Shown here one piece after another: positions 3,419 to 60,800 of a stretch of 64,000 nucleotides of DNA. Within the stretch, counting starts at the first letter, position 1. Each line of letters begins with the position of its first letter. Origin of the DNA: Brachybacterium epidermidis (GTDB lineage: Bacteria; Actinomycetota; Actinomycetes; Actinomycetales; Dermabacteraceae); the NCBI RefSeq assembly GCF_015209585.1, contig NZ_JADEYR010000004.1, positions 62,001 to 126,000 on the forward strand, in the 5' to 3' direction. The notes beneath the pieces are model-generated. The model did not search any database, had not been told where the DNA came from, and saw nothing but the letters and a program-made list of their open reading frames with translations. The translations under genes and the position numbers were made by a program.

Positions 3419-3424
3419 AGGCTA
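3419..3424 (-). promoter_or_regulatory. Leaderless -10 (TAGCCT) of metallophosphoesterase
   Basis: TAGCCT ends 6 nt before ATG 3412 (spacer GGAGAC). The GGAG is too close to the start codon to act as a normal ribosome site. Confidence 0.6.
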
Positions 3425-3491
3425 CGGGCCCCTGCTGCCCGGCGTGATGGCACCGACACCGGCCCGTCGTGCACCTGCGCGCTCATCCTGG

Positions 3492-3497
3492 AACAAT
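3492..3497 (+). promoter_or_regulatory. Possible leaderless -10 (AACAAT) of valS
   Basis: AACAAT plus the 7-nt spacer GGCGGCC precedes ATG 3505. The same GGCGGCC spacer follows TAGAGT before the beta-phosphoglucomutase gene. The hexamer itself is a weak match. Confidence 0.4.
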
Positions 3498-3504
3498 GGC
3501 GGCC

Positions 3505-6207
3505 ATGACCGAAACCTCTGCGCGCCCGGACGCCGGCACGACCGCCGGCACCGCCCCCGGGTCCCCCCCCGGATCCACTGTCCCCGATCGCCCCTCCCTG
3601 GAGGGCCTGGAGGCGAAGTGGGACGGCGTATGGAGCAAGCGCAAGGACTACGCCTTCGACCGGGACACCACGCGAGAGCAGGTGTTCAGCGTGGACACCC
3701 CGCCGCCCACGGCCTCGGGGTCCCTGCACATCGGCCACGTGTTCGGCTACTCCCAGGCCGACATGATCGTGCGCTACCAGCGCATGCGCGGCAAGAACTG
3801 CTTCTACCCGCTGGGCTGGGACGACAACGGCCTGCCCACCGAGCGCCGAGTGCAGAACTACTACGGGGTGCGCTGTGACCCCTCCCTGCCGTACGACCCG
3901 GACTTCACTCCCCCGCAGGAGGGCGGCGACAACAAGTCCGCGAAGGCCGCCAACCAGCTGCCGATCTCACGTCGCAACTTCATCGAGCTGTGCGAGAAGC
4001 TCACCGAGATCGACGAGAAGTCCTTCGAGGAGGTGTTCCGCACCCTGGGCCTCTCGGTGGACTGGGACTACTCGTACCAGACCATCGACTCCCGCTCCCG
4101 CGCGGTGAGCCAGCGGGCGTTCCTGGAGAACCTGCAGGCCGGCCAGGCCTACCAGGCGGAGGCCCCCACCATGTGGGACGTCACCTACCGCACTGCCGTG
4201 GCGCAGGCCGAGCAGGAGGACCGCGACCGCGAGGGCGCCTACCACCGCATCGGCTTTTCCCGCACCGGCGATTCCGGGGAGACGGTGTTCATCGAGACCA
4301 CCCGCCCCGAGCTGCTGCCGGCGTGCGTGTCCCTGGTGGCCCACCCGGACGACGAGCGCTACCAGCACCTGTTCGGCACCACCGTCACCTCTCCCCTGTT
4401 CGGGGTGGAGCTGCCGGTGAACCCCCACCCCCTGGCGCAGGCCGACAAGGGCGCGGGCATCGCCATGATCTGCACCTTCGGCGACTCCACTGACGTGATC
4501 TGGTGGCGCGAGCTGGACCTGCCCACCCGCTCGGTGATCGGCCGCGACGGTCGCTTCGTGGCCGACGCTCCCTGGATCACCTCCCGGGAGGGCATCGCCC
4601 GCTACGCCGAGCTGGCGGGGCTGACCGTGTTCAGCGCCCAGAAGCGCGTGGTGGAGATGCTCACCGAGACCGGTGACCTGGTGGGGGAGCCGAAGAAGAT
4701 CAGCCACCCGGTGAAGTTCTACGAGAACGGTGACAAGCCGCTGGAGTACGTGACCAGTCGCCAGTGGTACCTGGCCAACGGTGGCCGCGACCAGTCGCAG
4801 GACGGCCTGCGCTCGCGCCTGATCGGGCGGGGCCGCGAGCTGGCCTGGCACCCGGGTCACATGGAGTCCCGCTACCGCAACTGGGTGGAGGGCCTGACCG
4901 GTGACTGGCTGATCTCCCGCCAGCGCTTCTTCGGGGTGCCCTTCCCGATCTGGTACGCGGTCGATGCGAACGGCGAGACGGACTACGAGCGTGTGCTCAC
5001 TCCCCCGGTCGAGTCCCTGCCGATCGACCCCACCATCGACGTGCCGAGCGGCTTCGAGGAGTCTCAGCGCGATCAGCCGGGCGGGTTCACCGCGGACCCC
5101 GACATCCTCGACACCTGGGCCACCAGCTCCCTGACCCCGCAGCTCGCCGGCGGCTGGGGCCACGACGAGGACCTGTTCGCCAAGGTCTACCCGATGGACC
5201 TTCGCCCCCAGGGGCACGACATCATCCGCACCTGGCTGTTCTCCACCATCGTGCGCTCCCACCTGCAGCAGGACTCCCTGCCGTGGAAGCACGCCTCGAT
5301 CAACGGCTGGATCCTGGACCCGGACCGCAAGAAGATGTCGAAGTCCAAGGGCAACGTGGTCACCCCGATCGGCCTGCTGCAGCAGCACGGCTCCGACGGC
5401 GTGCGCTACTGGGCCGGCAGTGCCCGTCAGGGCGTGGACACCGCCTTCGACGAGGGGCAGATGAAGATCGGCCGCCGCCTGGCGATCAAGATCCTCAACG
5501 CCTCCAAGTTCGCGCTCGGCTTCGGCCCGGCCCCCGCCGATCCGGCCGGGCGCCTGGCGGCGGACCCGTCGGCCGTGACCGAGCCGCTGGACCGCGCCTT
5601 GCTGGCGCGGCTGGCCGAGGTGGTCGAGCAGGCCACGGTGGCGTTCGACGACATGGACTACGCGCGCAGCCTGAACGTGGTCGAGCCGTTCTTCTGGATG
5701 TTCTGCGACGACTACATCGAGCTGGTGAAGGAGCGTGCGCACGGCCAGGCCGGGGAGCAGGCCGCGGCCTCGGCCCGAGCGGCTCTGGCGATCACGCTGG
5801 AGGTGCTGCTGCGCCTGTTCGCCCCGGTGATCGTGTTCGCCACCGAGGAGGTGTGGTCCTGGTGGCGCGAGGGCAGCGTGCACACGCAGCCCTGGCCGGA
5901 AGCCGCGCCGCTGCGTGAGGCCTCAGCCGGTCAGGACGCCGCGCTGCTGGATGCGCTCTCCCAGGCCGTGATCGCGGTGCGGCGCATCAAGTCCGATGCG
6001 AAGGTGTCCCAGAAGACCCCGATCCTGCGGGTCACCCTGGTGGCGCCCGGGGCATCGGCCTCGCACCTGGAGGCGGCCCGCTCGGACCTGGTGGCCCTGG
6101 GTCGCATCGAGGACCTCACCGTGAGCGGCGGCGACGTCGACTCGGTGACCGCCGAGCACGCCGAGCTCGGTGAACCCCCGGTCAAGCAGCCGCGCGCCAA
6201 GGGCTGA
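3505..6207 (+). CDS. valS: Valine--tRNA ligase
   Basis: This is a 900-aa class I aminoacyl-tRNA synthetase that charges tRNA-Val. The HIGH-type motif (TASGSLHIGHVFG) is near residue 70 and the KMSKS loop (KKMSKSKGNVV) near residue 612. Between them lies the CP1 editing domain, with the ETTRPELLPACVSLVAHP segment typical of ValS. The early segment DDNGLPTERRVQNYYGV and the lack of the usual long C-terminal coiled-coil arm suggest the shorter type-2 ValS lineage rather than the E. coli type; that is inference. ATG 3505 is preferred over the in-frame ATG 3496 because no Shine-Dalgarno fits either, and 3505 gives the leaderless spacing seen at other genes. A small membrane protein starts 3 bases after the stop. 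Confidence 0.95.
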   Translation: MTETSARPDAGTTAGTAPGSPPGSTVPDRPSLEGLEAKWDGVWSKRKDYAFDRDTTREQVFSVDTPPPTASGSLHIGHVFGYSQADMIVRYQRMRGKNCFYPLGWDDNGLPTERRVQNYYGVRCDPSLPYDPDFTPPQEGGDNKSAKAANQLPISRRNFIELCEKLTEIDEKSFEEVFRTLGLSVDWDYSYQTIDSRSRAVSQRAFLENLQAGQAYQAEAPTMWDVTYRTAVAQAEQEDRDREGAYHRIGFSRTGDSGETVFIETTRPELLPACVSLVAHPDDERYQHLFGTTVTSPLFGVELPVNPHPLAQADKGAGIAMICTFGDSTDVIWWRELDLPTRSVIGRDGRFVADAPWITSREGIARYAELAGLTVFSAQKRVVEMLTETGDLVGEPKKISHPVKFYENGDKPLEYVTSRQWYLANGGRDQSQDGLRSRLIGRGRELAWHPGHMESRYRNWVEGLTGDWLISRQRFFGVPFPIWYAVDANGETDYERVLTPPVESLPIDPTIDVPSGFEESQRDQPGGFTADPDILDTWATSSLTPQLAGGWGHDEDLFAKVYPMDLRPQGHDIIRTWLFSTIVRSHLQQDSLPWKHASINGWILDPDRKKMSKSKGNVVTPIGLLQQHGSDGVRYWAGSARQGVDTAFDEGQMKIGRRLAIKILNASKFALGFGPAPADPAGRLAADPSAVTEPLDRALLARLAEVVEQATVAFDDMDYARSLNVVEPFFWMFCDDYIELVKERAHGQAGEQAAASARAALAITLEVLLRLFAPVIVFATEEVWSWWREGSVHTQPWPEAAPLREASAGQDAALLDALSQAVIAVRRIKSDAKVSQKTPILRVTLVAPGASASHLEAARSDLVALGRIEDLTVSGGDVDSVTAEHAELGEPPVKQPRAKG

Positions 6208-8308: not shown

Positions 8309-10099
8309 TCAGCGCACGATCTCCCGGTGGCCGGCGTCCACGCGGCGGGTCCAGCCACGTGCGTCCAGGTGCTCCAGCAGCGGGATCGCCACGCGGCGGG
8401 TGGTGCCGAGTGCCTGCCGGGCCTGGCTGGTGGTGAACGGCTGGGTCAGAGCGGCCAGCTCCCTCATCGCCAGGGCCGGAGCGGTGGGCAGCAGGACCAC
8501 GCCGTCGGGCAGACGCAGCACACGCCCCAGCCGCTCCGCGGCCGCCAGCTCCCGCGGCCCCAGACGCAGCGCGGCGAGGTCCTCCGCCTCGGGTGCCTGG
8601 AACGGGGTGTCGCGCAGCCGCTGCTCGAGCGCTGCGATCCCGGACTCTGCAGCGCCCAGTCCTGCAGCGGATCCCGGGGCGCGCAGTCGACCGTCGACAT
8701 GCTCGAGCCCGGCCGCGGCCACCACAGGTCCCAGCAGTGACTCGTCCGGCAGCGTCAGCAGGTCCAGCGCGGCCCGCGCGGGCAGTCCCGCTGCCAGCGG
8801 GTTCGCGCGCGCATGTGCCTCGGCAGCGGCGCTGAGCGCTTCGGTCCAGCGGGTGAGAGCGTCCGTGTCCGCGAGCCACTCCCCCACACGCCGGACGCCC
8901 GCGGGCAGGGGGTCCGGCACCGGGATGCCACGACGCCGCAGCACCCGCTCCGGGATCGCGCCTCGCCGCTGCACCTCGAGGAGGGCGTCCCCGGACAGCG
9001 GCATCTGCTGGAGCACAGCCGCACGACGGGCCCCGTCGCCGCGCCGGTCCAGTGCGGGCGGGTCCACATCCAGCACATGCACGCCCGCGTACACCGCGTG
9101 GGAGCCGCTGCCGCGCAGCACCATCCGGTCCCCCGTCGTCAGCGGCAGCGGACGGTCCAGAGTGAGCCGGGCATGCTGCCGGCCGAGGGGCCGCACGCGT
9201 GCGGCCACCGCCGCGGTCCCGACGTGCGCCGTCAGCTCCTCCGGGGCGTCGCCCAGGGCCTGCCCGGTCATGCCGCGCACGTCGACCAGGTCGGTGAGCT
9301 CCCAGGCGCCGGGCGTCAGCAGCGCGTCACCGCGCGAGACCTGCTCGTGGTCCACACCGCGCAGGTTCACCGCGGCTCTGCTGACGGGGCCGAGACTGTC
9401 GACCTGGCCCCCACGGCTCTGCAGGCCCCGGACGACGACCTGTGCGCGCGGCTCGGCGCCGTGCAGGTCCAGGCGCTGTCCCTTCGTGAGGGTGCCGGCG
9501 GCCAGGGTGCCGGTGACCACGGTGCCGGCACCGGAGATGGTGAAGGAGCGGTCCACCCACAGCCTCACGCGCTCCCCGACATCCGGTACGCGCGCGCGCT
9601 CCACCGCCTCGTCGAGGGCGGACCGCAGCTCGTCCACCCCCTGGCCGGTGACGGCGGAGACCGCGACCGCAGGCGCCTCGGCCAGCGGTGTCCCTGCGAA
9701 CTCGGAGCGCACCTGGGCCGCCACCTCGTCGATCCTCTCGGGTGCCAGATCGGCGCGCGTGATCGCGATGATGCCCTGGTCGATGCCGAGGGCGGCGACG
9801 GCATCGCGGTGATCGTCGGACTGGGCCTGCCAGCCGGCATCGGCCGCGACCACGAAGCACACGATCGGGGCCGGACCCAGGCCGGCGAGCATGTTGCCCA
9901 GGAACCGCTCATGCCCGGGGACATCCACGAAGGAGACCTCGCGCCCCGAAGGCAGGGTGGTCCAGGCGAAGCCGAGGTCGATGGTGAGACCACGGCGCTT
10001 CTCCTCCGCCCAGCGGTCCGGCTCGATGCCGGTGAGCGCGCGGATCAGGGTGGACTTGCCGTGGTCGACGTGGCCGGCGGTGGCGATGACCTGCATCAT
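8309..10099 (-). CDS. selB: Selenocysteine-specific elongation factor SelB
   Basis: This 596-aa GTPase delivers Sec-tRNA to UGA codons that carry a SECIS hairpin. The N-terminal EF-Tu-like G domain shows G1 GHVDHGKST (residues ~8-16), DVPGHERF (G3) and an ITRAD segment where NKxD is expected (G4). Beta-barrel domains follow (SGAGTVVTGTL). The last ~270 residues, after about 330, should be the winged-helix domains that bind SECIS. ATG 10099 overlaps the selA stop as ATGA, so the two are translationally coupled. The gene is the last of the tRNA-Sec-selA-selB group. Confidence 0.93.
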   Translation of the reverse strand: MMQVIATAGHVDHGKSTLIRALTGIEPDRWAEEKRRGLTIDLGFAWTTLPSGREVSFVDVPGHERFLGNMLAGLGPAPIVCFVVAADAGWQAQSDDHRDAVAALGIDQGIIAITRADLAPERIDEVAAQVRSEFAGTPLAEAPAVAVSAVTGQGVDELRSALDEAVERARVPDVGERVRLWVDRSFTISGAGTVVTGTLAAGTLTKGQRLDLHGAEPRAQVVVRGLQSRGGQVDSLGPVSRAAVNLRGVDHEQVSRGDALLTPGAWELTDLVDVRGMTGQALGDAPEELTAHVGTAAVAARVRPLGRQHARLTLDRPLPLTTGDRMVLRGSGSHAVYAGVHVLDVDPPALDRRGDGARRAAVLQQMPLSGDALLEVQRRGAIPERVLRRRGIPVPDPLPAGVRRVGEWLADTDALTRWTEALSAAAEAHARANPLAAGLPARAALDLLTLPDESLLGPVVAAAGLEHVDGRLRAPGSAAGLGAAESGIAALEQRLRDTPFQAPEAEDLAALRLGPRELAAAERLGRVLRLPDGVVLLPTAPALAMRELAALTQPFTTSQARQALGTTRRVAIPLLEHLDARGWTRRVDAGHREIVR

Positions 10100-11475
10100 T
10101 CCTGCTCTTCTCCGGTCGTCGGTTCTGCTCCGGCCCTCGAGTGCGCTCCGGGACCTGGCGCGCCTGCCAGGCGCTCACGAGCGGCGATCACTGCCTGGGT
10201 CAGCGTGTCGTCCTGGGCCTGGGGCACGCAGCGCAGGTCGAGCAGGCAGGCGCCGTCCTTCACGGTCCCCACCACGGCAGGGTCTGCGCTGCGAAGCGCC
10301 GTTGCGAGCTGCTCCTCCAGCTGGATCGCCCAGCCGGGCAGCGGCACTTCCGCCCCACCGCCGCCGCCCACGCGGCCGTCGTGCTCGACGACGGGCGCGC
10401 CCAGGCGCGCCGCCACCTGCTCGGTCCGCGCACGCAGCTGACGGGGATCGGTGCGCAGTGCCGCGAGCACTGGTGGCGTGGGACCGGTCAGGGTGGCCTC
10501 CACGGCGGCCAGGGCCAGCTTGTCCGCCCGGACGGCACGGGCCAGGGGGTGGCGGGCCAGGCGCGCGATGATCTCGCGCTTGCCCAGCAGGATCCCGGCC
10601 TGGGGGCCTCCCAGCAGCTTGTCGCCGCTGGCGATCACCAGGTCCGCCCCCTCCCGCAGGGCGGTGCCGGCGTCGGGCTCCTCAGGCAGGGCCTGCTCAG
10701 GCTGCAGCAGGCCGCTGCCGAGGTCCGCCACCAGCGGCACCCCGGCCTCCCGGCACACCGGTGCCAGCTGGGCGATCGGGACGCTGCTGGTGAAGCCGAT
10801 GATGCGGTAGTTGCTGGTGTGGATGCTGAGCACGCACCCCGTGTTCGCACCGAGGGCGTCGGTGTAGTCGGCGAGGTGGGTGCGGTTGGTGGTGCCGACC
10901 TCGCGCAGCTGTGCACCGGCGGAGGCGATCAGGTCCGGCAGGCGGAATCCGGCGCCGATCTCGATCATCTCGCCACGGCTGAGCACCACCTCACCGGTGC
11001 CGGCCAGAGCTGTGGTGGCCAGCACCAGGGCAGCTGCGCCGTTGTTGACGACCAGGGCGTCCTCGGCCTGCGGGCAGGCGGCGAGCAGGGCGGCGCGCGC
11101 CCCGGCACCGCGTCGGGAACGGGCACCGGTGGCCAGGTCGAACTCAACATCGGTGTACCCGGCCGCGTCGGACACTGCCCGGCGGGCCACCTCGGACAGG
11201 GGCGCTCGCCCCAGGTTCGTGTGGACGATGACACCGGTGGCGTTCAGCACGGGGCGCAGGGAGCCGGCGGGGCGCTCCCCGACGGCCGCCAGGATCTCCT
11301 CCAGCACCTGCTCGGGGGGGATGTCGCCGCGGCGCGCCCGATCCTGTGCAGCGCGGACGATGCCGCGCACCACACGCTCGCTCATGGCCTCCCCGGCGGC
11401 ACGCACCTGCGGGTGCCCGAGCAGCTGGTCGGTGCGGGGAATCCGACGGCGCGGATCCTGTTCGTCGGCGACCAT
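10096..11475 (-). CDS. selA: L-seryl-tRNA(Sec) selenium transferase
   Basis: This 459-aa PLP enzyme converts Ser-tRNA(Sec) to Sec-tRNA(Sec) using selenophosphate. The PLP-lysine region reads VIASGDKLLGGPQAGILLG. The N-terminal part carries RRRIPRTDQLLGHP, and NATGVIVHTNLGRAPLS is typical of the family. ATG 11475 is chosen because GAGGAGG lies 4 nt upstream; the longer open frame would run back over tRNA-Sec. It sits 29 bases after the 3' end of tRNA-Sec on the same strand and overlaps selB. Confidence 0.93.
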   Translation of the reverse strand: MVADEQDPRRRIPRTDQLLGHPQVRAAGEAMSERVVRGIVRAAQDRARRGDIPPEQVLEEILAAVGERPAGSLRPVLNATGVIVHTNLGRAPLSEVARRAVSDAAGYTDVEFDLATGARSRRGAGARAALLAACPQAEDALVVNNGAAALVLATTALAGTGEVVLSRGEMIEIGAGFRLPDLIASAGAQLREVGTTNRTHLADYTDALGANTGCVLSIHTSNYRIIGFTSSVPIAQLAPVCREAGVPLVADLGSGLLQPEQALPEEPDAGTALREGADLVIASGDKLLGGPQAGILLGKREIIARLARHPLARAVRADKLALAAVEATLTGPTPPVLAALRTDPRQLRARTEQVAARLGAPVVEHDGRVGGGGGAEVPLPGWAIQLEEQLATALRSADPAVVGTVKDGACLLDLRCVPQAQDDTLTQAVIAARERLAGAPGPGAHSRAGAEPTTGEEQE

Positions 11476-11504
11476 CGGACCTCCTCGTCGGCGCGCGGGC
11501 ATGC

Positions 11505-11599
11505 TGGCGGAGGCGGACGGGAATCGAACCCGCCAGACCGAGATGCTCGGTCTCACCGGTTTTGAAGACCGGGGCGCCCACCAGGACACGTACGCCTCC
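11505..11599 (-). tRNA. selC: tRNA-Sec (anticodon TCA), selC
   Basis: On the minus strand a 95-nt cloverleaf starts GGAGGCG and ends CGCCTCC-G-CCA, so the acceptor stem pairs perfectly and CCA is encoded. The anticodon arm is CCGGT-CTTCAAA-ACCGG, with TCA to read UGA. A long variable arm is present (GAGACCGAG-CAT-CTCGGTCT), followed by the T arm GCGGGTTCGATTCCCGT. Length, long extra arm and position directly upstream of selA identify tRNA-Sec. Confidence 0.95.
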
Positions 11600-11791
11600 G
11601 AGAACCAAAATACCAGGTCGTGGCCGATGGTCAGGCGGGAAGGTCGAATCCCCGCCATTGCTCGCCGTCCCCGGCCGATACCCCGTCGGTGGCCGCGAGC
11701 GCGTACAGCACCGACCCGTCCGGTGCCGATCCTGACGGCCCCTGCTGCTGACGGGGGGCGATCGACCCGTCCGACCTGATGACAGGCACTC

Positions 11792-11797
11792 TAGACT
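11792..11797 (+). promoter_or_regulatory. Leaderless -10 (TAGACT) of selD
   Basis: TAGACT with the 6-nt spacer CGATCC precedes ATG 11804. No Shine-Dalgarno sequence is present. Confidence 0.65.
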
Positions 11798-11803
11798 CGA
11801 TCC

Positions 11804-12790
11804 ATGACTGCTGACACGATCCGACTCACCACGATGGCCCACGGCGGAGGGTGCGCCTGCAAGATCCCGCCCGGTGAACTGGAGGATGCTGTCTCGGCCC
11901 TCGCCGGTCAGCAGTTCGACTCGGTGATCGTGGGGCTGGACGACGGGGACGACGCCGCCGCCGTGCGCGTCCAGGACGGTCTGGCGGTGCTGTCCACCGC
12001 GGACTTCTTCACCCCCGTGGTGGATGACCCCTTCGACTGGGGTCGCATCGCCGCCGCCAACGCTCTTTCGGACATCTACGCGATGGGCGGCACTCCCGTG
12101 GTGGCCATCAACCTGGTGGGCTGGCCCCGGGACGTGCTCCCCTTCGACCTGCTGCGCGAAGTGCTGCGCGGTGGCCTCGCGATCGCGAACCAGGCCGGTG
12201 TCCCCGTGATCGGAGGTCACTCGGTGGATGACCCCGAGCCCAAGTACGGCATGGCGGTCACCGGCACCGCGCACCCCGATCGTCTGCTGCGCAACGACGC
12301 CGCGGAAGCAGGCCTGCCCCTGACGCTGACCAAGCCGATCGGCGTGGGCCTGCTGAACAACCGTCAGAAGGCCACCGGCGAGGTGTCGCAGGCCGCCGTG
12401 GACACCATGACCGCGCTCAACCGTGACGCCTCCGTCGCCGCCCTTGAGGCCGGAGCGAAGGCGGCCACCGACGTCACCGGCTTCGGCCTGCTGGGGCACC
12501 TGTACAAGATGGTGCGGGCCTCCGGGGTGGGAGCCGTGATCGACCGGGCCGCGGTACCGCTGATCGACGGGGCGGCCGAGGCCCTCCGCGATGGCTACAT
12601 CTCCGGCGGCACCCGTCGCAACCTCGACTGGGTGCGCGACCAGGTGCGCGCCGGGTCCGGCATCGCCGAGGAGGATCTGCTGTTGCTGGCCGATGCGCAG
12701 ACCTCTGGCGGCCTGCTGGTGGTCGGCGAGGTGCCCGGCTACCCGGTGATCGGCGAGACCGTGGTCGGCTCCGGCATCGACGTGCGCTGA
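11804..12790 (+). CDS. selD: Selenide, water dikinase (selenophosphate synthetase)
   Basis: This 328-aa enzyme makes selenophosphate, the selenium donor for SelA, from selenide and ATP. The N-terminal catalytic loop GGGCACK contains Cys17 and Lys20, so this SelD is a Cys form and not itself a selenoprotein. Asp-rich nucleotide/metal segments follow (LDDGDDAA, LSTADFFTPVVDDP), then GGHSVDDPEPKYGMAVTG and DVTGFGLLGH. It is transcribed away from the tRNA-Sec-selA-selB group and converges with the formate dehydrogenase operon across a strong hairpin. Confidence 0.95.
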   Translation: MTADTIRLTTMAHGGGCACKIPPGELEDAVSALAGQQFDSVIVGLDDGDDAAAVRVQDGLAVLSTADFFTPVVDDPFDWGRIAAANALSDIYAMGGTPVVAINLVGWPRDVLPFDLLREVLRGGLAIANQAGVPVIGGHSVDDPEPKYGMAVTGTAHPDRLLRNDAAEAGLPLTLTKPIGVGLLNNRQKATGEVSQAAVDTMTALNRDASVAALEAGAKAATDVTGFGLLGHLYKMVRASGVGAVIDRAAVPLIDGAAEALRDGYISGGTRRNLDWVRDQVRAGSGIAEEDLLLLADAQTSGGLLVVGEVPGYPVIGETVVGSGIDVR

Positions 12791-12849
12791 GGGCGCATCG
12801 ATCGCCCCGGCCGTGCGGAACGCCGACGACGCTGCGCAGACCGGATCGA

Positions 12850-12888
12850 ACGAGGGCGGTGGGAGCCAGGAGCTCCCACCGCCCTCGT
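12850..12888. terminator. Strong bidirectional terminator between selD and fdh operon
   Basis: GAGGGCGGTGGGAGC at 12852-12866 pairs perfectly with GCTCCCACCGCCCTC at 12872-12886 around a 5-nt loop, and two more outer pairs form. It serves both convergent transcripts; there is no T run on either side. Confidence 0.75.
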
Positions 12889-12907
12889 CGTCGACAGAGC
12901 CGGCGGC

Positions 12908-14005
12908 TCAGCCTGAGGTGGTGATGGAGTCGTCGGTGATGCCGGCGGCCCGCCGCGCGGCCAGGCGCGCCTTCTGTGGTTCGATCACGCGGCGCGGATC
13001 CTTGGTGGACTCCAGCCCGGCCTCGAGCACACCGAAGCGGGTGAGCACCGAGGCAGCCACCAGGGCAGCACCGCCGGCCATCGACAGGGCGCGGCTGCGG
13101 CCACCGAGGACGGCCAGCACACCGCCGCCGATCGCCAGGCGCTCCGCCCACTCGAGCATCTGGCCCGGCCTGCCGGTCTCCAGCGGCTCCGCCTCCAGGG
13201 GGTGCATCGACTCCTTCATGGCGCGGGAGGCGAGCACATCTCCCACCACCCCGGCCGCGGCAAGCACGCGCGCGGGACGCGCCTGATCCACCGGGGTGGT
13301 GATCATGGCGGCACCCCCCGAGGCCAGCGAGGCGGAGGAGGTGAACAGGTAGGACATATGATTGCGACCGGCGGACCAGGTGGGGACTGCGGTGTCGCCC
13401 AGCAGCGCACCCGTGTAGGAGGCGAGTCCCGGGCCGAGGGCGGCCTGGCCCAGGGCAGCAGGCCCTTCCGCTGCCTTCAGCAGCGGACGCAGCGCACCCA
13501 GCGGGACCTTCTCGCCCAGCATCCGATCCACCTCGACCGCGCCCAGCACTCCGGAGATGGTGCCGAAGCTAGCCAGGATCCAGGTGCCCAGGCTCATCGG
13601 GGAGCTGATCTTGACGGTGCGCATCATGTTCAGGAAGCGCTCCGGGCGGCCCAGGTCCTCGATCAGGGCCAGCGTGCCCACGCCGACCGCACCTAGCGCC
13701 AGCAGACGGCCGTTGCGGCGCAGCGCCGGGCGATCCGTCAGCTGGGCGCCATAGGACAGCAGCGAGGAGCCACCGGCCAGGCCTCCCAGGAACAGGTACA
13801 CGGCGATCGGGCCTCGCCACGGCGGAGCCTTGACCACCTGACGCCCGTAGTAGGAGTCGAACTGGACGTCGTCCACCAGCGCCATCTCGCGTGAGCCGTC
13901 CGCTCCCACCTGGCCCGCGCGCCGCCGCCGACGGCGGCCCGTCCCGGAGCGTCCCTTGCGGGGCTCCTGGGGCGGTCGATCGGAATCGAGATCGGAGATG
14001 CTCAC
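12908..14005 (-). CDS. nrfD: NrfD-family membrane subunit of formate dehydrogenase
   Basis: This 365-aa protein has a basic N-terminal stretch (KGRSGTGRRRRRR), then about eight hydrophobic segments beginning at PIAVYLFLGGLAGGSSLLSYGAQL, with the conserved LIEDLGRPERFLNMMRT loop of NrfD/PsrC quinone-linked membrane anchors. It would anchor the FdhA-FdhB pair and pass electrons to menaquinone. It takes the place of the cytochrome b subunit of E. coli FdnI, and no haem-ligand pattern was recognised. The start overlaps the fdhB stop (14002-14005), so it is the last gene of a coupled three-gene operon. Confidence 0.85.
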   Translation of the reverse strand: MSISDLDSDRPPQEPRKGRSGTGRRRRRRAGQVGADGSREMALVDDVQFDSYYGRQVVKAPPWRGPIAVYLFLGGLAGGSSLLSYGAQLTDRPALRRNGRLLALGAVGVGTLALIEDLGRPERFLNMMRTVKISSPMSLGTWILASFGTISGVLGAVEVDRMLGEKVPLGALRPLLKAAEGPAALGQAALGPGLASYTGALLGDTAVPTWSAGRNHMSYLFTSSASLASGGAAMITTPVDQARPARVLAAAGVVGDVLASRAMKESMHPLEAEPLETGRPGQMLEWAERLAIGGGVLAVLGGRSRALSMAGGAALVAASVLTRFGVLEAGLESTKDPRRVIEPQKARLAARRAAGITDDSITTSG

Positions 14006-15003
14006 CGCTTGCCTCCCATGAACGCCAGAGCCGTGGCCGCGATCATGCCGGCGGCGGCCACGCCGGCCCGCAGGTACATCTGCGGAAGGAACTTGGTGGA
14101 GACCTGCGGGTCCGGCGGCAGGCCGTACACCTCCGGCTCATCCAGCAGCAGGAACACCGAACCGATGCCGCCCACGCCGTCCTTCGGATTCGCGCCGTAC
14201 AGGCGGGCCTCGGTCATGCCGCGCTCATGCAGCTCACGGACGCGCTCCTGGGCATCTCCCACCAGATCGTCGTGATCGCCGAACTTGATGGAGGTGGTGG
14301 GGCAGGTGGCCGAGCAGGCTGGCTGCTCGCCGTCCACCAGACGGTCGTAGCACAGGGTGCACTTCTTCGCGGTGCCCATGCCGGGCACCTCGCCGTCGTG
14401 CTCCACCCGCGGGGACACGGTGCCGTCGTCACGACGCTCGATCACGCCGAAGGGACAGGCACCCACGCAGGTGCCGCAGCCGTTGCAGACGTCATCCTGG
14501 ACCACCACGGAGCCGAACTCCGAGCGGAAGATCGCACCGGTGGGGCACACGTCCAGGCAGCCCGCGTTGGTGCAGTGCTTGCAGACGTCCGAGGACATCA
14601 GCCAGCGGAACTCGGGAGTGTCCGGCGGGGTGGTGTCCACCCCACCCAGATCGCCCTCGGGCAGATCACCGCGGCGGCGGCCCGGCTTCGGGCCGATCGT
14701 GGGCATCCCCAGACCGACCAGCTTCCGACCCGACTCGCGCGCTTCCTCGATGCGGTCCTGGCCCTGCTCGACGAAGGCGACGTGGCGCCAGGTGTTGGCA
14801 CCGAGCGCCCCGGTGTTGTCGTAGCTGGAGCCCAGGATCTCCAGGTTCCCGTCCACGGGGTTGCGGTTCCACTCCTTGCACGCCACCTCGCAGGCCTTGC
14901 AGCCGATGCAGATCGAGGTGTCCGTGAAGAATCCCTTGCGGGCATGGTCATGACCCCATCCGGAGGAGGCGGCGGGGCCGGCGGACCCGGCGAGCAGGCT
15001 CAT
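14002..15003 (-). CDS. fdhB: Formate dehydrogenase iron-sulfur subunit
   Basis: This 333-aa ferredoxin-type subunit has four 4Fe-4S cysteine clusters. They read CIGCKACEVACKEW (near residue 32), CKHCTNAGCLDVCPTGAIF, CNGCGTCVGACPFGV, and CTLCYDRLVDGEQPACSATCP. It carries electrons from the catalytic subunit to the NrfD-type anchor. Near the C terminus one hydrophobic helix (AGVAAAGMIAATALAFMGGKR) can act as a membrane anchor, as in E. coli FdnH. No twin-arginine signal is seen. Both ends overlap the adjoining operon genes by four bases. Confidence 0.93.
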   Translation of the reverse strand: MSLLAGSAGPAASSGWGHDHARKGFFTDTSICIGCKACEVACKEWNRNPVDGNLEILGSSYDNTGALGANTWRHVAFVEQGQDRIEEARESGRKLVGLGMPTIGPKPGRRRGDLPEGDLGGVDTTPPDTPEFRWLMSSDVCKHCTNAGCLDVCPTGAIFRSEFGSVVVQDDVCNGCGTCVGACPFGVIERRDDGTVSPRVEHDGEVPGMGTAKKCTLCYDRLVDGEQPACSATCPTTSIKFGDHDDLVGDAQERVRELHERGMTEARLYGANPKDGVGGIGSVFLLLDEPEVYGLPPDPQVSTKFLPQMYLRAGVAAAGMIAATALAFMGGKR

Positions 15004-18000
15004 CGGTTGTTCATCTCCTTCATCGACGGGGTGCCATCGGGAACAGCGGTGGCCTCCTCCGGGCCGCGGACCTCGTGCGGCGAGAAGCCGTCCACGGGGC
15101 CTTCACCGGGGGCGCCCATGGCACCGTCGACCTCGGCTTCCTCGGCGGGCACCAGCCCGGCGCGGTCGCGGTACTCGTCCACCAGCGCGCGGAGCTCGGC
15201 CCCATGGGGACGGCGGCCCGGGCGGATCGCGCAGGCGCTGTTCTTGCTGTTCTGGATCTGCACGTTGGCGTCGAGGTTCATGGCGATGAGGTCGTTGACC
15301 CCGTCGCCGGAGACCACGGCCTCCTTGCCCCGCGCCCAGTGGTAGGGCAGGCCGATCTGGTGGACCGTGCGATCACCGATCTGCAGCGGCGTCATCCGCT
15401 CGGTCACCAGCACCTTCGCCTCGATCGCGGAGCGCGCCGAGATGATGGTGGCCCAGCCGTACGGCTCCAGCCCCAGCTCCTCGGCCAGCTCCGGCGAGAC
15501 CTCGCAGTACAGCTCCGGCTGCAGCTCCGCCAGGTACGGCAGGAAGCGGCTCATGCCTCCGGCCGTGTGGGGCTCGGTGATCCGGTACGTGGTGAACACG
15601 TACGGGTACACGTCGCCGCCCTCGGAGGACGCACCGGGCGAGGACAGGTTGTCCTTGCTGGTGAACGTCACCCGGGTGGGGTTGGACTGCTGCGAGTACA
15701 GCGGGTTCTCGACGTTCGACTCCGGTCCCTCGTAGTGGGTGGGCAGGGGCCCGTCCACCATGCCGGTGCCGGCGAAGAGCCAGGCACGGCCGTCGGACTG
15801 CATGATGAACGCGTCGGTGCCCGCCAGAGCCGCGGCGCCGCCCTTGGATGGATCGCCCGGATCGTCCGGTCGTTTGGTGGGCGGGAAGTCGGGGACGTCC
15901 AGCCCGGTCCACTTGCCCTGCTCCTCGTCCCACCACACGTGCTTCTTGCGCTCGCTCCAGGGCTTGCCCTGGGCGTCCGCAGAGGCGCGGTTGTAGAGGA
16001 TGCGACGGTTGGCAGGCCACGCCCAGCCCCACTCCAGGGCTGCCTGCGGCTGCTCCTTGCCGGGCTTGCGGCGGCGGGCCTGGTTGATGCCGTCGGCGTA
16101 CACGCCGGTGTAGATCCAGCAGCCGCCGATGGTGGTGCCGTCGTCCTTCATCTCACCGAAGGACTTCAGGGGCTCACCGGCCTTCTCACCGGCGATGTGC
16201 CGACCGTTGATCTCGGCCAGCACCGCCTCGGCATCCGGCTCGCCGTTCTCGTCCACCGGGTAGTCCCAGGTGAGTTCGAGGATCGGCCGGTCGCGCTCAT
16301 CGGTGGAGTTCTTGAGCTTCTCGCGCACGCGCTTGCCCAGCTCGTAGGCGAACTCCAGCTCGCTGATCGCATCTCCCGGCGCGTCCACGGCCTTGTCGCG
16401 CCACTGGACCATGCGCTGGGTCTGGGTGAAGGAGCCCGACTTCTCGGTGTGGTTGGCGGCCGGCATGAAGAACACCTCGGTGCCGATGTCCTCGGGTCGG
16501 GTCTCCCCCGACTCGATCTCGGCGGAGTCCTTCCAGAAGGTGGCCGTCTCGATCATGTAGAAGTCACGGACGACCATCCACTTCAGGTGCGCCAGGCCCT
16601 GTCGCTGCATCCGCCCGTTGGCCGAGCCCACAGCAGGGTTCTGGCCGAACAGGAAGTAGCCGTCCACACCGTCCTCGAGCATGCGCATGAGGGTCTGGTA
16701 GGTGCCATGGGCGCCGGTGAGCTTGGGCAGGTAGTGGTAGGCCCACTCGTTCTCGGCCGTCGCATTGTCGCCCCACCACGCCTTCAGCAGGTTGATGGCG
16801 TAGATGTCGGCGTTGGCCCAGAAGCCCTTCTGCTCCTTCTTGCCGATGGCCCGCGCGTACTCCGCGAAGGAGTCCTGGCCGACCTTCGGCATCGGCAGGT
16901 AGCCGGGAAGGATGTGGTACAGGGTGGGGATGTCCGTGGATCCCTGGATGGTGGCGTGGCCACGCAGGGCCATGATGCCGCCGCCCGGGCGGCCCATGTT
17001 GCCCAGCAGCAGCTGGAGCACCGCGGAGGTGCGGATCATCTGCGGGCCGCCCTGATGCTGGGTCCAGCCCAGTGCATAGGCGAAGCAGGTGGTCCGCTCC
17101 CGGCCGGAGTTCTCGGTGACCGCCTTGGCCAGGTACTCGAAGTCCTCCTGCGAGATGCCGCAGGCGGCCTGGACCATCTCCGGCGTGTACCGGGCGTAGT
17201 GGCGCTTGAGGATCTGGAAGACCGTGCGCGGGTGCTGGAGGGTCTCATCACGATCCGGCAGGCCCCGCTGGAGCATGTCCTTCTCGCCCTGGTAGGCCCA
17301 CGACTGGTTGTCATAGGTGCCGGTCTCCGGGTCGTACCCGGAGAACAGGCCATCGAGATCCTCGGTGTCCTCGAAGTCCTCGCGGATGATCGTGGACGCG
17401 TTGGTGAAGGTCTTGACGTACTCCTCGAACCAGAGGTCGTTCTCCAGCACGTAGCGGATCACGCCGCCCAGCAGCACGATGTCCGTGCCGGAGCGGATCG
17501 GGATGTGCTTGTCCGCATTGGCGGAGGTGCGGGTGAAGCGGGGATCCACGTGGATCACCTTCGCACCGCGCTTCTTGGCCTCCATCACCCACTGGAATCC
17601 CACCGGGTGGGCCTCGGCCATGTTCGAGCCCTCGATGACGATGCAGTCAGCGTTGGCCATGTCCTGCAGGTACTGCGTGGCGCCGCCACGTCCGAACGAG
17701 GCTCCCAGACTGGGAACCGTGGACGAGTGTCATATGCGGGCCTGGTTCTCCATCTGGATCGCCCCGGCGGCGGTGAAGAACTTCTTGAGGAGGTAGTTCT
17801 CCTCGTTGTCGATCGTGGCACCGCCCAGGCTGGCGATGCCCATCGTGCGGCGGACGGGCCGACCCTCCGGGTCGACGTCCTCCCAGTGGTTGCGCCGCGC
17901 CTCGATGAAGCGGTCCGCGATCATGTCCATCGCTTCCTCGGCGTCGAGGTCCTGCCACTCAGTGGCGTAGGGGGCGCGGTACTTGACCTTGGTCTGGCGC

Positions 18001-18293
18001 AGGGTGGAGTTGGCGAGCTGCTCACTGGCCGCGCCCTTGGGGCACAGGCGCCCGCGCGAGACGGGCGAGTCCGGATCGCCTTCGATCTGGATGACCCGAC
18101 CGTCCTTGTGGTAGACGCGCTGGCCGCAGCCCACGGCGCAGTAGGGGCAGACGCTCTGGGCGACACCGTCGGCGGTGGCGGTGCGCGAGGTGGTGCTGCG
18201 AGTCTTCTGGGACATGACCGCGGTGCCGCGTCCGGTCTTGTCCGCACCCCGCAGCTGCCGGATCACCGGCCAGTCAAGGAACTGGGTAGACAT
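15000..18293 (-). CDS. fdhA: Formate dehydrogenase catalytic subunit, selenoprotein (UGA at 17730-17732)
   Basis: This is a 1097-aa molybdopterin/tungstopterin oxidoreductase that oxidises formate to CO2. The N-terminal 4Fe-4S motif is CPYCAVGCG...LCPKG. The frame continues through TGA 17730-17732 at residue 188: the context QARI-U-HSSTVPSLGASFGRGG aligns with the active-site Sec region of FdnG-type enzymes. Conventional gene finding splits it into 17730-18293 and a false start near 17660. A SECIS-like hairpin follows the UGA and all Sec machinery lies within 10 kb. No twin-arginine motif is present at the N terminus, which suggests a cytoplasm-facing enzyme. ATG 18293 has TATGGT 6 nt upstream. 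The C-terminal part contains the molydopterin-dinucleotide-binding region (NLIAMNLDANVQIQNSK). Confidence 0.95.
17700..17732 (-). promoter_or_regulatory. Sec UGA codon and bacterial SECIS hairpin
   Basis: After UGA (17732-17730) and 11 nt, GGTTCCCA (17718-17711) pairs with TGGGAGCC (17707-17700) across the loop GTC, giving 8 pairs with one G-U. The G of the loop lies about 20 nt after the UGA, the place where SelB-binding bacterial SECIS loops sit. Confidence 0.85.
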
Positions 18294-18299: not shown

Positions 18300-18305
18300 A
18301 CCATA
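18300..18305 (-). promoter_or_regulatory. Leaderless -10 (TATGGT) of the formate dehydrogenase operon
   Basis: TATGGT with the 6-nt spacer GGATCC precedes ATG 18293. No Shine-Dalgarno sequence is present. No obvious anaerobic regulator site was seen. Confidence 0.55.
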
Positions 18306-35158: not shown

Positions 35159-35164
35159 TACATT
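35159..35164 (+). promoter_or_regulatory. Leaderless -10 (TACATT) of the NAD(P)-binding protein gene
   Basis: TACATT with the 6-nt spacer GGCCCG precedes ATG 35171. Confidence 0.65.
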
Positions 35165-36712: not shown

Positions 36713-36718
36713 TAGAGT
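36713..36718 (+). promoter_or_regulatory. Leaderless -10 (TAGAGT) of the pgmB-GH65 operon
   Basis: TAGAGT and the 7-nt spacer GGCGGCC precede GTG 36726, just after the 19-bp repeats. Confidence 0.65.
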
Positions 36719-41806: not shown

Positions 41807-41812
41807 TATCCT
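41807..41812 (+). promoter_or_regulatory. Leaderless -10 (TATCCT) of the Rieske gene
   Basis: TATCCT plus the 6-nt spacer GGATGG precedes ATG 41819. A nearer ATG at 41815 is out of frame. Confidence 0.6.
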
Positions 41813-45477: not shown

Positions 45478-45483
45478 TAGTCT
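45478..45483 (+). promoter_or_regulatory. Leaderless -10 (TAGTCT) of senX3
   Basis: TAGTCT with the 6-nt spacer TGTCTG precedes GTG 45490. Confidence 0.6.
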
Positions 45484-48180: not shown

Positions 48181-48186
48181 TAGACT
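48181..48186 (+). promoter_or_regulatory. Candidate -10 (TAGACT) of carD
   Basis: TAGACT lies 25 bases before ATG 48212, and the gene has a normal AAAGGGG ribosome site, so this transcript should carry a short leader. Confidence 0.5.
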
Positions 48187-48211
48187 GTACTGCGGAAAGG
48201 GGACCAGCCAC

Positions 48212-48762: not shown

Positions 48763-49434
48763 GTGCTCGCCCTGGCCCCGGCTGCCTCGGAAGGGCGCCC
48801 CGGTGACGTGCCGGCGCTGGCCGAGCTCGGGGGGACCTGCCTGGTCGGGCGGCTCCTCGCCACTCTCTCCGAGGTCGGGCTGCCCGCCCCGCTGGTGATG
48901 ACCACGGAGGCCGCTGTGCCTCGGATGCGCCGCGCGCTTGGCCGCGGGGCGGAGGTGCGCGCGAGCCAGGGCGGCCGGGCACAGGCGATCATCGCGGCCC
49001 TGGCGGAGCTCGACGGCACCTCCGTGCTGATCCTCGACGCCGAACGCGCCCTCACCCCCGCATCGGTCATCTCCGAGGTGCTCGCGGCTGCCGGCGACGA
49101 CGTCGATGCGGTGGTGCCGGTGATCCCCATGACCGATTCGGTCAAGCTCGTCACCCACGACGGTCTGCGCAACGTGGACCGCTCCACGCTGGCCGGGCTG
49201 CAGAGTCCACGGCTGCTGCGTCGCACCGTGCTCGAGAACGCCGTGCGATTAGCCGTCGACGATGACCAGGACGAGATCCTCGCGGTCCTCGCGCGAGGAG
49301 CTCGCGTACGCACCGTGCCCGGCTCCCACGCCGGCTTCGCGGTGGTGGACCGCTTGGGGCTGTGGCAGGCGCAGATCGCCCTGGGCCTGGCGCGGGACAC
49401 CTCCCACCGCCACGGACTGTCCCGTCGCGGCTGA
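48763..49434 (+). CDS. Degenerate IspD-like protein
   Basis: This is a 223-aa protein at the position of ispD in the conserved carD-ispD-ispF order. It aligns from the first residue with the IspD fold (VLALAPAASEGRPGDVPALAELGG against VLAAGSGTRLG...), but the GSGTR nucleotide loop is lost and the PK lysine is gone. RASQGGRAQAIIAAL and SVLILDAERAL remain. It is probably inactive as a cytidylyltransferase, perhaps regulatory or decaying. GTG 48763 is the only plausible start; no Shine-Dalgarno is seen. The canonical ispD is at 49813. Confidence 0.65.
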   Translation: MLALAPAASEGRPGDVPALAELGGTCLVGRLLATLSEVGLPAPLVMTTEAAVPRMRRALGRGAEVRASQGGRAQAIIAALAELDGTSVLILDAERALTPASVISEVLAAAGDDVDAVVPVIPMTDSVKLVTHDGLRNVDRSTLAGLQSPRLLRRTVLENAVRLAVDDDQDEILAVLARGARVRTVPGSHAGFAVVDRLGLWQAQIALGLARDTSHRHGLSRRG

Positions 49435-49812: not shown

Positions 49813-50565
49813 TCACCCCGTCCTCAAACCTAGCGCGGCCACGACGTCCTGGGCCAGGAGCAGGTCCTGGGCGTAGGTGATCTTGAAGTTGGTCTCCTCG
49901 CCGCGCACCCAGCTCACGGGGATGTCCGTGTACTCCTCGGCGCACGAGGCGGTGTCGGTCCCCACGAAGCCGTCGCGCGCGGCCGCCTCGTAGGCGTCCA
50001 GGATGGTGGCGGCCCGGAATCCCTGGGGCGTCTGCACCCGCACCAGGCGGGAGGGGTCGAAGGCCCCCGTCGCCAGGTGGGCGGTGCCGCCCACGGGGGC
50101 GACATCGGCGGCCGGTATGCCGGGCACCGCTCCCCCGTGCTCCCGGGCTGCGTGGAGCACGGCCGCAGCGAGACCGTGCGAGACCAGGGGCCGGGCGGCG
50201 TCGTGGATCAGCACCGTGTCCACCGCACCGGAGTCGATGCGGTCGGCCAGGTGCCGCAGCGCCATCAGCTCCGACTCCTGCCGGGTGTCACCGCCAATGA
50301 TGATCTCGAGGTGGTGGGCGGTCTCGCGCTCGGCGACGAAGCGGGCGTGCTCGCGATCCTCGGGTCGCACCACGAACACCAGCGTCCCCACGCCCTCCAC
50401 GGAGGCCAGAGTGTTGATCCCCCAGCTGGCGATGCTGCGCCCGGACAGCGGCAGGAACGCCTTGTTGATCCCGGCACCCACCCGGGTGCCGGACCCCCCG
50501 GCCAGGACGATGCCGGCGGCCTTCCCGCGCAGGCGCGGTGAGCGGAGTCGGCGCGGATGGGTCAC
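49813..50565 (-). CDS. ispD: 2-C-methyl-D-erythritol 4-phosphate cytidylyltransferase
   Basis: This is a 250-aa MEP-pathway enzyme that forms CDP-methylerythritol from MEP and CTP. AGIVLAGGSGTRVGAGINKAFLPL holds the nucleotide loop and its Lys. VLIHDAARPLVS and RVQTPQGFRA are also present. GTG 50565 has TACGAT 6 nt upstream. ispF, the next pathway step but one, lies 432 bases away on the other strand. Confidence 0.93.
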   Translation of the reverse strand: MTHPRRLRSPRLRGKAAGIVLAGGSGTRVGAGINKAFLPLSGRSIASWGINTLASVEGVGTLVFVVRPEDREHARFVAERETAHHLEIIIGGDTRQESELMALRHLADRIDSGAVDTVLIHDAARPLVSHGLAAAVLHAAREHGGAVPGIPAADVAPVGGTAHLATGAFDPSRLVRVQTPQGFRAATILDAYEAAARDGFVGTDTASCAEEYTDIPVSWVRGEETNFKITYAQDLLLAQDVVAALGLRTG

Positions 50566-50571: not shown

Positions 50572-50577
50572 ATCGTA
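50572..50577 (-). promoter_or_regulatory. Leaderless -10 (TACGAT) of ispD
   Basis: TACGAT and the 6-nt spacer GCGGGG precede GTG 50565. Confidence 0.6.
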
Positions 50578-50667: not shown

Positions 50668-51000
50668 ATGCTCACCATCGCCATCGTGTGCGGCGCGGGG
50701 ATCGCCACCTCCGCCCTGCTCGCGAAACGCGTTCGCGAGCACGTGGCCCCGCGCGGTGCGCACCTCCGAGTCGTCCAGGCCACCGTGATGGACCTGCTCT
50801 CGCCCGACTTCACCGCTGATCTGGTGGTCTCCACCGTGGACCTGCCCGACGCGCTCGGCATTCCTCGCGTGTCCGGGATGCCGCTGCTGCTGGGTACCCG
50901 CCCGGAGCAGACGTACCAGGACATCGACACGCTGCTGGACCGGATCGATACCGCAGGGACGGACGGGACCGATCCGGGCCGTCCCGGAGATCCGGCATGA
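50668..51000 (+). CDS. Orphan PTS EIIB component, galactitol-type
   Basis: This is a 110-aa protein. The phosphocysteine loop is [12 protein letters not shown], as in PTS EIIB domains of the GatB/SgcB type. AGGAG precedes ATG 50668 by 6 nt. No EIIA or EIIC gene is adjacent. The stop overlaps the ispF start (ATGA), so the two are translated together. It may serve a distant permease or act as a regulatory phosphocarrier. Confidence 0.8.
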
Positions 51001-51488
51001 CCGCCCTTCCCCGCGTCGGCACCGGGGTGGACGTGCATGCCGTCGCGCCGGAGGGCAGTGACCGTGAGCTGTGGATCGCGGGCCTGCGCTGGGAGGGCGA
51101 GCGCGGCCTGGAGGGCCACTCCGATGCCGACGTCGCCTGCCATGCGGCCTGCGACGCGCTCTTCGCGGCCGCGGGCATCGGTGATCTGGGAACGCACTTC
51201 GGCACCGGCCGTCCCGAGTGGGCCGGCGCCTCCGGTGCCGCGCTGCTGGCCGAGGCCGCGCGCCTGGTGCGCGAGGCAGGGTTCGAGATCGGGAACATCT
51301 CGGTGCAGGTGGTGGGCAACCGGCCAAGGCTCTCACGCCGCCGCGAGGAGGCCTGTGCTCGCATGAGCGAGGCCGCCGGTGCGCCCGTCTCGGTGGCCGG
51401 CACCACCACCGACGGCCTGGGCCTGACGGGTCGGGGCGAGGGCATCGCGGCGATCGCCACGGCGCTCGTGATTCCGCAGGACAGCTGA
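50997..51488 (+). CDS. ispF: 2-C-methyl-D-erythritol 2,4-cyclodiphosphate synthase
   Basis: This is a 163-aa MEP-pathway enzyme. [11 protein letters not shown] carries the metal Asp and His, and [21 protein letters not shown] the second metal His. [23 protein letters not shown] forms the nucleotide site. It overlaps the EIIB gene in front and is followed by ilvA after 16 bases. Confidence 0.93.
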
Positions 51489-53777: not shown

Positions 53778-53783
53778 AGCCTA
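53778..53783 (-). promoter_or_regulatory. Leaderless -10 (TAGGCT) of galE
   Basis: TAGGCT plus the 7-nt spacer CGTGGCC precedes ATG 53770. Confidence 0.6.
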
Positions 53784-53788: not shown

Positions 53789-55309
<1,521 letters not shown>

Positions 55310-55346: not shown

Positions 55347-55352
55347 TAGGAT
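55347..55352 (+). promoter_or_regulatory. Leaderless -10 (TAGGAT) of the second LCP gene
   Basis: TAGGAT plus the 7-nt spacer GGGGCGC precedes ATG 55360. Confidence 0.6.
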
Positions 55353-58981: not shown

Positions 58982-58987
58982 CCTCCC

Positions 58988-58993
58988 AGGCTA
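58988..58993 (-). promoter_or_regulatory. Leaderless -10 (TAGCCT) of mtr
   Basis: TAGCCT plus spacer GGGAGG precedes GTG 58981; the GGGAGG touches the start codon and so is not a usable ribosome site. Confidence 0.6.
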
Positions 58994-59890: not shown

Positions 59891-59897
59891 CCGGGCG

Positions 59898-59903
59898 TAC
59901 GCT
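59898..59903 (+). promoter_or_regulatory. Leaderless -10 (TACGCT) of the RlmA-like gene
   Basis: TACGCT plus the 6-nt spacer GGAGCG precedes ATG 59910. Confidence 0.6.
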
Positions 59904-59909
59904 GGAGCG

Positions 59910-60800
59910 ATGCCTGCTCCCCCCGGTGCCCGCGCCCTGCCCTCCGCCCTGACGGCGGTGCTGGACCTGCTGCGCTGCCCCCGCTGCGGGGAGCAGCTGG
60001 CCCCGGTCGACGGCTCCCTGCGCTGCCCGGCGCGGCACACCTTCGACGTGGCGCGGGCAGGCTATGCCTCCCTGCTCACCGGCACCGCAGCGACCAGCGG
60101 GGACGACGACGAGATGGCGCGGGCCCGGGACAGGTTCCTCGACAGCGGCGCCTACGCACCGATCCGCGACCTGATCATCGAGCTGGTGGTCGGCCATGCG
60201 GAGGCGCGCAGTGCCGAGGGTGCTCCTCCCGCGGTGCTGGACGTGGGCTGCGGCACCGGCTACTACCTGGCCGGGGTGCTGGAGCGCCTGTCCTCGGCCC
60301 AAGGGCTGGGGCTGGACACCTCCACCCGAGCCCTGCGGTTCGCGGCCCGCGCCCATGAGCGTGCCGCCGCGGCCAGCTGGGACGTGTTCGCCCCGTTCCC
60401 GCTGCGGGACGCCGGCGTGGAGGTGCTGCTGGACGTGTTCGCCCCCCGCAACCCGACCGAGTTCGCACGGGTGCTGATGCCCGGGGGCGTGCTGGTGGTG
60501 GTGCGGCCCGCACCGGACCACCTCGCCGAGCTGCGTGAGGTGGTTCCCGGGATGGTCTCCCTGGACCCGCACAAGGAGGAGCGCCTGCACCGGGTGCTGG
60601 ATCCCCTGTTCAGCACGGAGCGCACCGAGGAGCTGCGCTACCCCGTGGACCTCTCGACAGCTTCCGCCCGTGATCTGGTGCGGATGACGCCCAGTGCCCG
60701 CCACGTCGACGCCGAGCAGCTCGAGGCCTCGGTGCCATCGGAAATGACGGTGACCGTCAGCGTGGTGGCGAGCTCCCATCGGGTGCTGCCGGAGGGTTGA
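59910..60800 (+). CDS. RlmA-like 23S rRNA (guanine-N1) methyltransferase
   Basis: This is a 296-aa SAM enzyme. The N-terminal zinc site is LLRCPRCGEQL...LRCPARHTFD. DVGCGTGYYLAGVLE is the SAM motif, and VFAPRNPTEFARVLMPGGVLVVV is typical of the RlmA family that methylates G745 or G748 of 23S rRNA; TlrB in tylosin producers is a resistance form. Which site is modified here cannot be told. Confidence 0.87.
   Translation: MPAPPGARALPSALTAVLDLLRCPRCGEQLAPVDGSLRCPARHTFDVARAGYASLLTGTAATSGDDDEMARARDRFLDSGAYAPIRDLIIELVVGHAEARSAEGAPPAVLDVGCGTGYYLAGVLERLSSAQGLGLDTSTRALRFAARAHERAAAASWDVFAPFPLRDAGVEVLLDVFAPRNPTEFARVLMPGGVLVVVRPAPDHLAELREVVPGMVSLDPHKEERLHRVLDPLFSTERTEELRYPVDLSTASARDLVRMTPSARHVDAEQLEASVPSEMTVTVSVVASSHRVLPEG

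Follow-up and report, generated by a model that had tools for sequence, protein, structure and literature searches.

Do the genes of a GC-rich actinobacterium begin their transcripts at the start codon itself? The question is raised by a stretch of 64,000 nucleotides from Brachybacterium epidermidis (hereafter the window; 70.6% G+C), which forms part of contig C25 in a genome of 3.07 Mb and 30 contigs. A preliminary description of the window had noticed that the hexamer TANNNT ends 6 or 7 nt before ATG or GTG at fourteen named genes, with weaker forms at three more, and had proposed that transcription of these genes starts at the start codon or about a base from it.

As judged from the DNA, it is very likely that these are leaderless genes with sigma-70-type promoters. 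The box, its spacing, the lack of a Shine-Dalgarno site, the preferred C before the start codon and the conservation between species are seen in the sequence itself; the RNA 5' end and the mode of ribosome entry we infer. The -10 box would position RNA polymerase to begin on the first base of the start codon, A or G, give or take about one base; the resulting mRNA would have neither a 5' untranslated region nor a Shine-Dalgarno (SD) site, and the ribosome would begin at the 5'-terminal ATG or GTG. Downstream genes of operons would mostly rely on SD sites or on stop/start overlaps.

A hexamer at a fixed distance from start codons

The arrangement was scored as TANNNT-N6/7-[AG]TG, i.e. TANNNT starting at -12 or -13 from the start codon, and genes were predicted with a caller written for the analysis that is blind to the motif and uses codon usage only (56-57 genes for the window). 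Over its two strands the window has 16 matches. Fourteen of them head called genes, and these are exactly the fourteen genes named before (Table 1); the other two (at 77 and 59037, both on the plus strand) begin open reading frames of only 42 and 35 aa, which the caller did not predict as genes. Twelve matches have a spacing of 6 and four a spacing of 7; at each of the remaining 35 spacings in the range 3-39 there are 0-7 matches (mean 2.4).

Gene names were checked against Pfam and NCBIfam profiles. Scores above the NCBIfam cut-off were obtained for selD, galE, guaB1 and mycothione reductase, and also for the C-terminal piece of formate dehydrogenase (1413.9 vs 1400 bits). The metallophosphoesterase, M15 dipeptidase, NAD(P)H-binding, beta-phosphoglucomutase-like HAD, Rieske, IspD-family, LCP and RlmA-like methyltransferase genes are named at the family level only, and "senX3" is the name from the preliminary description for a PhoR/PnpS-like kinase below the cut-offs, whose gene adjoins a PhoB/MtrA-like regulator gene and phoU.

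Table 1. Candidate -10 boxes of leaderless-type genes in the window, with a leadered contrast and the sites where a stop codon lies inside the box
Feature	Position	Strand	Start codon	Gene or remark
TAGCCT	3419-3424	-	ATG 3412, 6 nt	metallophosphoesterase
TAGACT	11792-11797	+	ATG 11804, 6 nt	selD (NCBIfam name)
TATGGT	18300-18305	-	ATG 18293, 6 nt	fdhA (formate dehydrogenase)
TATAGT	29083-29088	+	GTG 29095, 6 nt	D-Ala-D-Ala dipeptidase-like (M15)
TACATT	35159-35164	+	ATG 35171, 6 nt	NAD(P)H-binding (NmrA-like)
TAGAGT	36713-36718	+	GTG 36726, 7 nt	beta-phosphoglucomutase-like HAD (pgmB)
TATCCT	41807-41812	+	ATG 41819, 6 nt	Rieske protein
TAGTCT	45478-45483	+	GTG 45490, 6 nt	senX3-like histidine kinase
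TACGAT	50572-50577	-	GTG 50565, 6 nt	IspD family
TAGGCT	53778-53783	-	ATG 53770, 7 nt	galE (NCBIfam name)
TATCCT	55257-55262	-	ATG 55249, 7 nt	guaB1
TAGGAT	55347-55352	+	ATG 55360, 7 nt	LCP (LytR-CpsA-Psr), LCP2
TAGCCT	58988-58993	-	GTG 58981, 6 nt	mycothione reductase (mtr)
TACGCT	59898-59903	+	ATG 59910, 6 nt	RlmA-like methyltransferase
TAGACT (leadered contrast)	48181-48202	+	ATG 48212	carD; box 48181-48186 at -31, GAAAGGGG 48195-48202
Stop/-10 fusions, own sample	29083-29088			M15 gene, and seven junctions in L008, L009, L016, L019, L020, L030, L036

Of the weaker forms reported at an ABC ATPase gene, an MFS gene and valS, none is TANNNT. Before valS, a class I tRNA synthetase gene, stands CATCCT-6-ATG, and TANNNT is absent 10-14 nt before every start tried for the MFS gene (34992, minus strand) and for the ABC ATPase gene (called start 32670, minus strand, assumed to be the gene meant). 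Such weak forms are marginal at best: among 192 divergent genes [ACG]ANNNT occurs 30 times at -12 and 21 times at -13 (control mean 13.9, sd 6.0, maximum 29), and the two remaining one-mismatch forms of TANNNT give no excess there.

An alignment of gene starts had been suggested as a check, and it was made on a genome sample of 864 kb with 691 called genes, which is 28% of the genome and consists of the window and 40 further 20-kb stretches. At 669 motif-blind starts TANNNT was found 49 times at -12, 15 times at -13, 3 times at -14 and never at -11, against a mean of 1.7 per offset from -16 to -57, so that a sharp peak at -12/-13 stands above the other offsets. When nearby in-frame starts were all considered, 90 of the 691 genes have TANNNT at -12/-13; for ten other pairs of offsets the number is 5-14 of 691. 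Internal in-frame start codons (n = 14389) have one TANNNT at -12 and one at -13, and the same count at 47 annotated starts of E. coli K-12 gave 0 and 1, with a mean of 1.02 at offsets 15-59. A further peak at +11 in the offset counts comes from one repeated gene with nine copies in the 800 kb outside the window (L009, L014, L015, L018 twice, L023, L026 twice, L033), which are identical in their first 40 nt and have a good SD site; the gene is possibly a mobile element.

For annotation this is of practical value, since in roughly one of every eight sampled genes the promoter marks the start codon. The motif-blind start equals the proposed one at 9 of the 14 window genes; it is off by 6-36 nt for selD, pgmB, Rieske and galE (a coding-only caller misplaces the selD start by 30 nt) and by 618 nt for LCP2.

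The density of such starts had been put forward as the notable part, and this has to be withdrawn. The share in the sample of our genome is 90/691 (13.0%), and three other actinobacterial samples span 13.1-20.3% (51/321 in G138, a member of the same genus, 35/172 in G049 and 20/153 in G018). In the window itself 13 of 57 called genes have the arrangement (14 when LCP2 is added), a mild excess over the rest of the sample (77/634, p = 0.037). Higher shares occur in sets chosen by locus, namely 120 of 676 genes in 80 selD loci and 95 of 304 in 17 syntenic loci.

Signals around the start codon and position in operons

The SD and context counts were made after removal of repeated genes, which left 684 genes. 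Five-base SD matches are missing from all 90 leaderless-type starts, none of which is preceded by the AGGAG-type site of SD-led genes; they occur in 27-39% of the genes in five other classes and at 5.7% of internal start codons. Four-base matches, at 13 of the 90 starts, are at the level of the internal start codons (16%), and the earlier remark that no usable SD site is present is therefore well founded. The 90 genes start with ATG (61) or GTG (29) and never with TTG, which the count allowed, although TTG is rare in other genes as well (2/601), so its absence is weak evidence.

In 141 promoters from our genome and G138, the base at -1 is C in 64% of those with spacing 6 (n = 88) and in 77% of those with spacing 7 (n = 53). 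The preference at both spacings indicates that the position of the C is set by the start codon rather than by the box, and C at -1 followed by a purine at +1 fits transcription starting at the start codon. The boxes are mostly of the TAG- or TAC- kind, and the two bases just 3' of them are enriched in G.

Operons were judged from strand and distance only. The arrangement is found in 46 of 192 divergent genes and in 12 of 178 genes lying at most 25 nt behind a co-directional neighbour (Fisher p = 6e-6). Hence the suggested selective use at operon heads stands as a preference, not as a rule. In the window nine of the fourteen genes are divergent (LCP2 was placed by hand opposite guaB1 in this orientation count) and five (fdhA, M15/vanX, Rieske, galE and RlmA) lie behind a co-directional gene. 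The suggestion that internal genes are translated by a separate route is sustained by SD 4-mers in 109 of 166 non-leaderless genes at most 25 nt behind a neighbour, against the 16% background.

With five genes so placed, read-through RNA may exist for some of them, and besides the leaderless promoter a second one farther upstream could yield a translated mRNA with a leader. We consider this rather unlikely, in view of the SD 5-mers missing at all 90 such starts.

Conservation of the arrangement and its rivals

The same-genus comparison used 18 syntenic loci, excluding our own genome. For seven leaderless-type genes the arrangement was kept in 97 of 97 counted loci: senX3, guaB1 and mtr 18/18 each, galE 17/17 distinct loci (the eighteenth, whose start was identical, was skipped), the ispD family 13/13 (5 of 18 dropped), rlmA 9/9 (9 dropped) and LCP2 4/4 (14 dropped, alignment limits). 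Six genes whose window copy lacks the motif served as controls and had it in 0 of 95 loci, with phoU, the regX3-like gene and the gene at 51505 at 0/18 each, carD at 0/15 (3 skipped) and the genes at 48763 and 50997 at 0/13 each (5 dropped each). TANNNT at -14 was seen in 1 of 18 loci of the 51505 gene. The bases upstream of the box vary freely among species in galE and mtr (by eye), and the spacing itself varies between 6 and 7 among loci of galE (5 and 12) and rlmA (4 and 5). The contrast of 97/97 with 0/95 argues that the distance from box to start is under selection gene by gene.

These counts already refute chance, that is, AT-rich hexamers together with starts picked to fit. The five of fourteen genes at which motif-blind and proposed starts differ would speak for it, but with about 1.7 hexamers per 669 starts at other offsets and a conservation that the controls lack, its probability is practically negligible.

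Among wider relatives, own genome included, senX3 keeps the arrangement in 27/27 loci (2 of 30 dropped) and mtr in 29/30. Class-wide sets were even draws of 118 genomes, with the best 30 loci per gene and our own included; they gave 17/28 for senX3, 18/28 for selD, 8/30 for guaB1 and 6/30 for the ispD family, a set that contains the other IspD paralogue, so that 6/30 may understate the share. In senX3 and selD the arrangement is kept also where the N-terminus has shifted by codons. Among the best 80 of the selD matches listed (84,980 species) it is present in 73 of 79 distinct loci, with 0-4 at any other offset, in a set biased towards the most similar loci. That selD might be a uniquely universal leaderless gene was considered and rejected, since its class-wide share of 18/28 is like that of senX3.

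Certain results weigh against the leaderless reading. Class-wide, TANNNT stands at spacing 5 or 8-11 in 10/30 guaB1, 7/30 senX3 and 4/30 ispD-family loci, and it is lacking from that range in 12/30, 10/28 and 20/30 loci of guaB1, selD and the ispD family. A clear -35 peak is missing too: in the 141 promoters, hexamers agreeing with TTGACA in 4 of 6 positions were counted 6 times at spacer 17, 9 times at spacer 11 and 0-5 times at the others (1-34), and those agreeing in 5 of 6 positions 0 times at spacer 17. M. tuberculosis promoters are likewise described as lacking a -35 element (PMC3898074).

Orthologues with the deviating spacings are perhaps near-leaderless, with a leader of few bases. 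They, together with the 6-or-7 variation within galE and rlmA, would suit the view that the promoters are real and the mRNAs carry 1-5 nt of leader, on which the ribosome loads without an SD site anyway. This is unlikely, because the genome-wide peak lies only at spacings 6 and 7 (49 and 15 starts, against 3 at 8 and 0 at 5) and the C at -1 tracks the start codon.

The lack of a clear -35 element could also mean that the hexamer acts in translation or at the DNA level and is not a promoter. We deem this very improbable: carD, a leadered contrast with a purine-rich leader, keeps TANNNT at -31/-32, far from its start codon, followed by GAAAGGGG, in 15 of 15 distinct genus loci, and TANNNT is reported at 73% of mapped M. 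tuberculosis primary starts (PMC3898074).

Stop codons inside the box, neighbouring genes and known systems

In front of the M15 gene, the TAG stop of the preceding aminotransferase gene (29085-29087) falls within the box. Our sample has eight leaderless-type starts at a distance of 7-10 nt from the stop of an upstream gene, and in every one that stop is a TAG within TANNNT (Table 1), although among 450 upstream co-directional genes just 24 end in TAG. Any stop whose end lies 4-10 nt before a start of this kind overlaps the box by geometry, so the overlap alone proves nothing. With four genomes pooled, 12 of 21 candidate starts 9-10 nt behind a stop are leaderless-type, versus 29 of 469 at 11-60 nt, and at 9-10 nt the T needed at box position six follows a TAG or TAA stop in 12/13 cases and TGA in 1/8 (p = 5e-4). 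At this distance the first three bases of the box are usually supplied by a TAG stop of the preceding gene. In the two TGA-ended cases at 5 nt (one each in G138 and G049) the overlap is the last T of the box.

Support from the genus is mixed. Of 38 genus genomes, 5 have the M15 gene by our search, and three loci were counted, of which our own and that of G160 (L331) are fused, whereas the third, at 36% identity, lacks both the leaderless start and the fusion. The formate/nitrite transporter gene is leaderless in our own genome only (1/23). For uvrB, 26 of 27 distinct genus loci, own included, are leaderless, and the TAG ends an open frame of at least 120 codons (a putative gene) in only 6 of the distinct loci, which speaks for a fixed promoter that catches upstream frames like a stop trap, rather than for selection of the fusion itself.

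Tentatively, and as a possibility that we hold to be somewhat unlikely, the TAG of a TAGNNT box in GC-rich actinobacteria may recurrently be the stop of the preceding gene, packing stop, promoter, transcription start and start codon into about 15 nt. Where stop codons are scarce, the promoter would then trap reading frames that run into it, and translation of the downstream gene may have two sources, its own leaderless mRNA and read-through RNA on which ribosomes re-initiate. In the literature searched, judged by title or abstract, no description of a fusion of stop codon and -10 box was found. The fusion offers a simple, testable case of promoters shaping the ends of genes. Short co-directional spacers with a stop overlapping the SD site (PMC2784483) are alike in that the stop shares the signal of the next gene; there the stop lies within an SD site, in Brachybacterium within the -10 box of a promoter.

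Several neighbouring genes of the window deserve mention. A selenocysteine cluster at 8309-18293 comprises selB and selA (both above the NCBIfam cut-off), tRNA-Sec (11505-11599) and two leaderless-type genes, selD and fdhA, the last of which is interrupted by a TGA in frame (17730-17732). Two IspD-family genes stand 0.4 kb apart (48763-49434, adjacent to carD, 65.7 bits, weak; and 49813-50565, the leaderless one, 166.1 bits), both below the cut-off of 181.3 bits, and an IspF-family gene (YgbB) lies at 50997-51488. A 541-aa reading frame at 40164-41789 fuses a BrkB-type membrane domain (16-268) to a peptide deformylase domain (357-511), and trigger factor (24751-26274) has a histone H1-like (HC2) C-terminal tail below the Pfam cut-off (30.6 vs 40 bits).

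Overall, the leaderless genes of the window are of the known actinobacterial kind, and the pattern is real and conserved but ordinary and already described. The one paper matched for Brachybacterium together with leaderless concerned antimicrobial producers from cheese boards. Zheng 2011 (PMC3160421) reported TA-led genes in 86 of 89 actinobacterial genomes, about 20% of genes, with TANNNT placed some 12 bp ahead of the start codon and operon-distal genes tied to SD sites, so that motif, offset, phylum-wide share, density and the operon argument were all published in 2011. The present results are the same in principle; theirs are genome-statistical, and here named sites and their orthologues are compared. 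In M. tuberculosis and M. smegmatis the 5' ends and ribosome footprints have been measured (PMC3898074, PMC4633059), while the Brachybacterium pattern is read from sequence. The likeness to these two species is close: there, too, TANNNT without a -35 element is followed by ATG or GTG at +1 with a preferred C at -1, and 71 of 97 orthologues are leaderless in both species (PMC3898074, PMC4633059).

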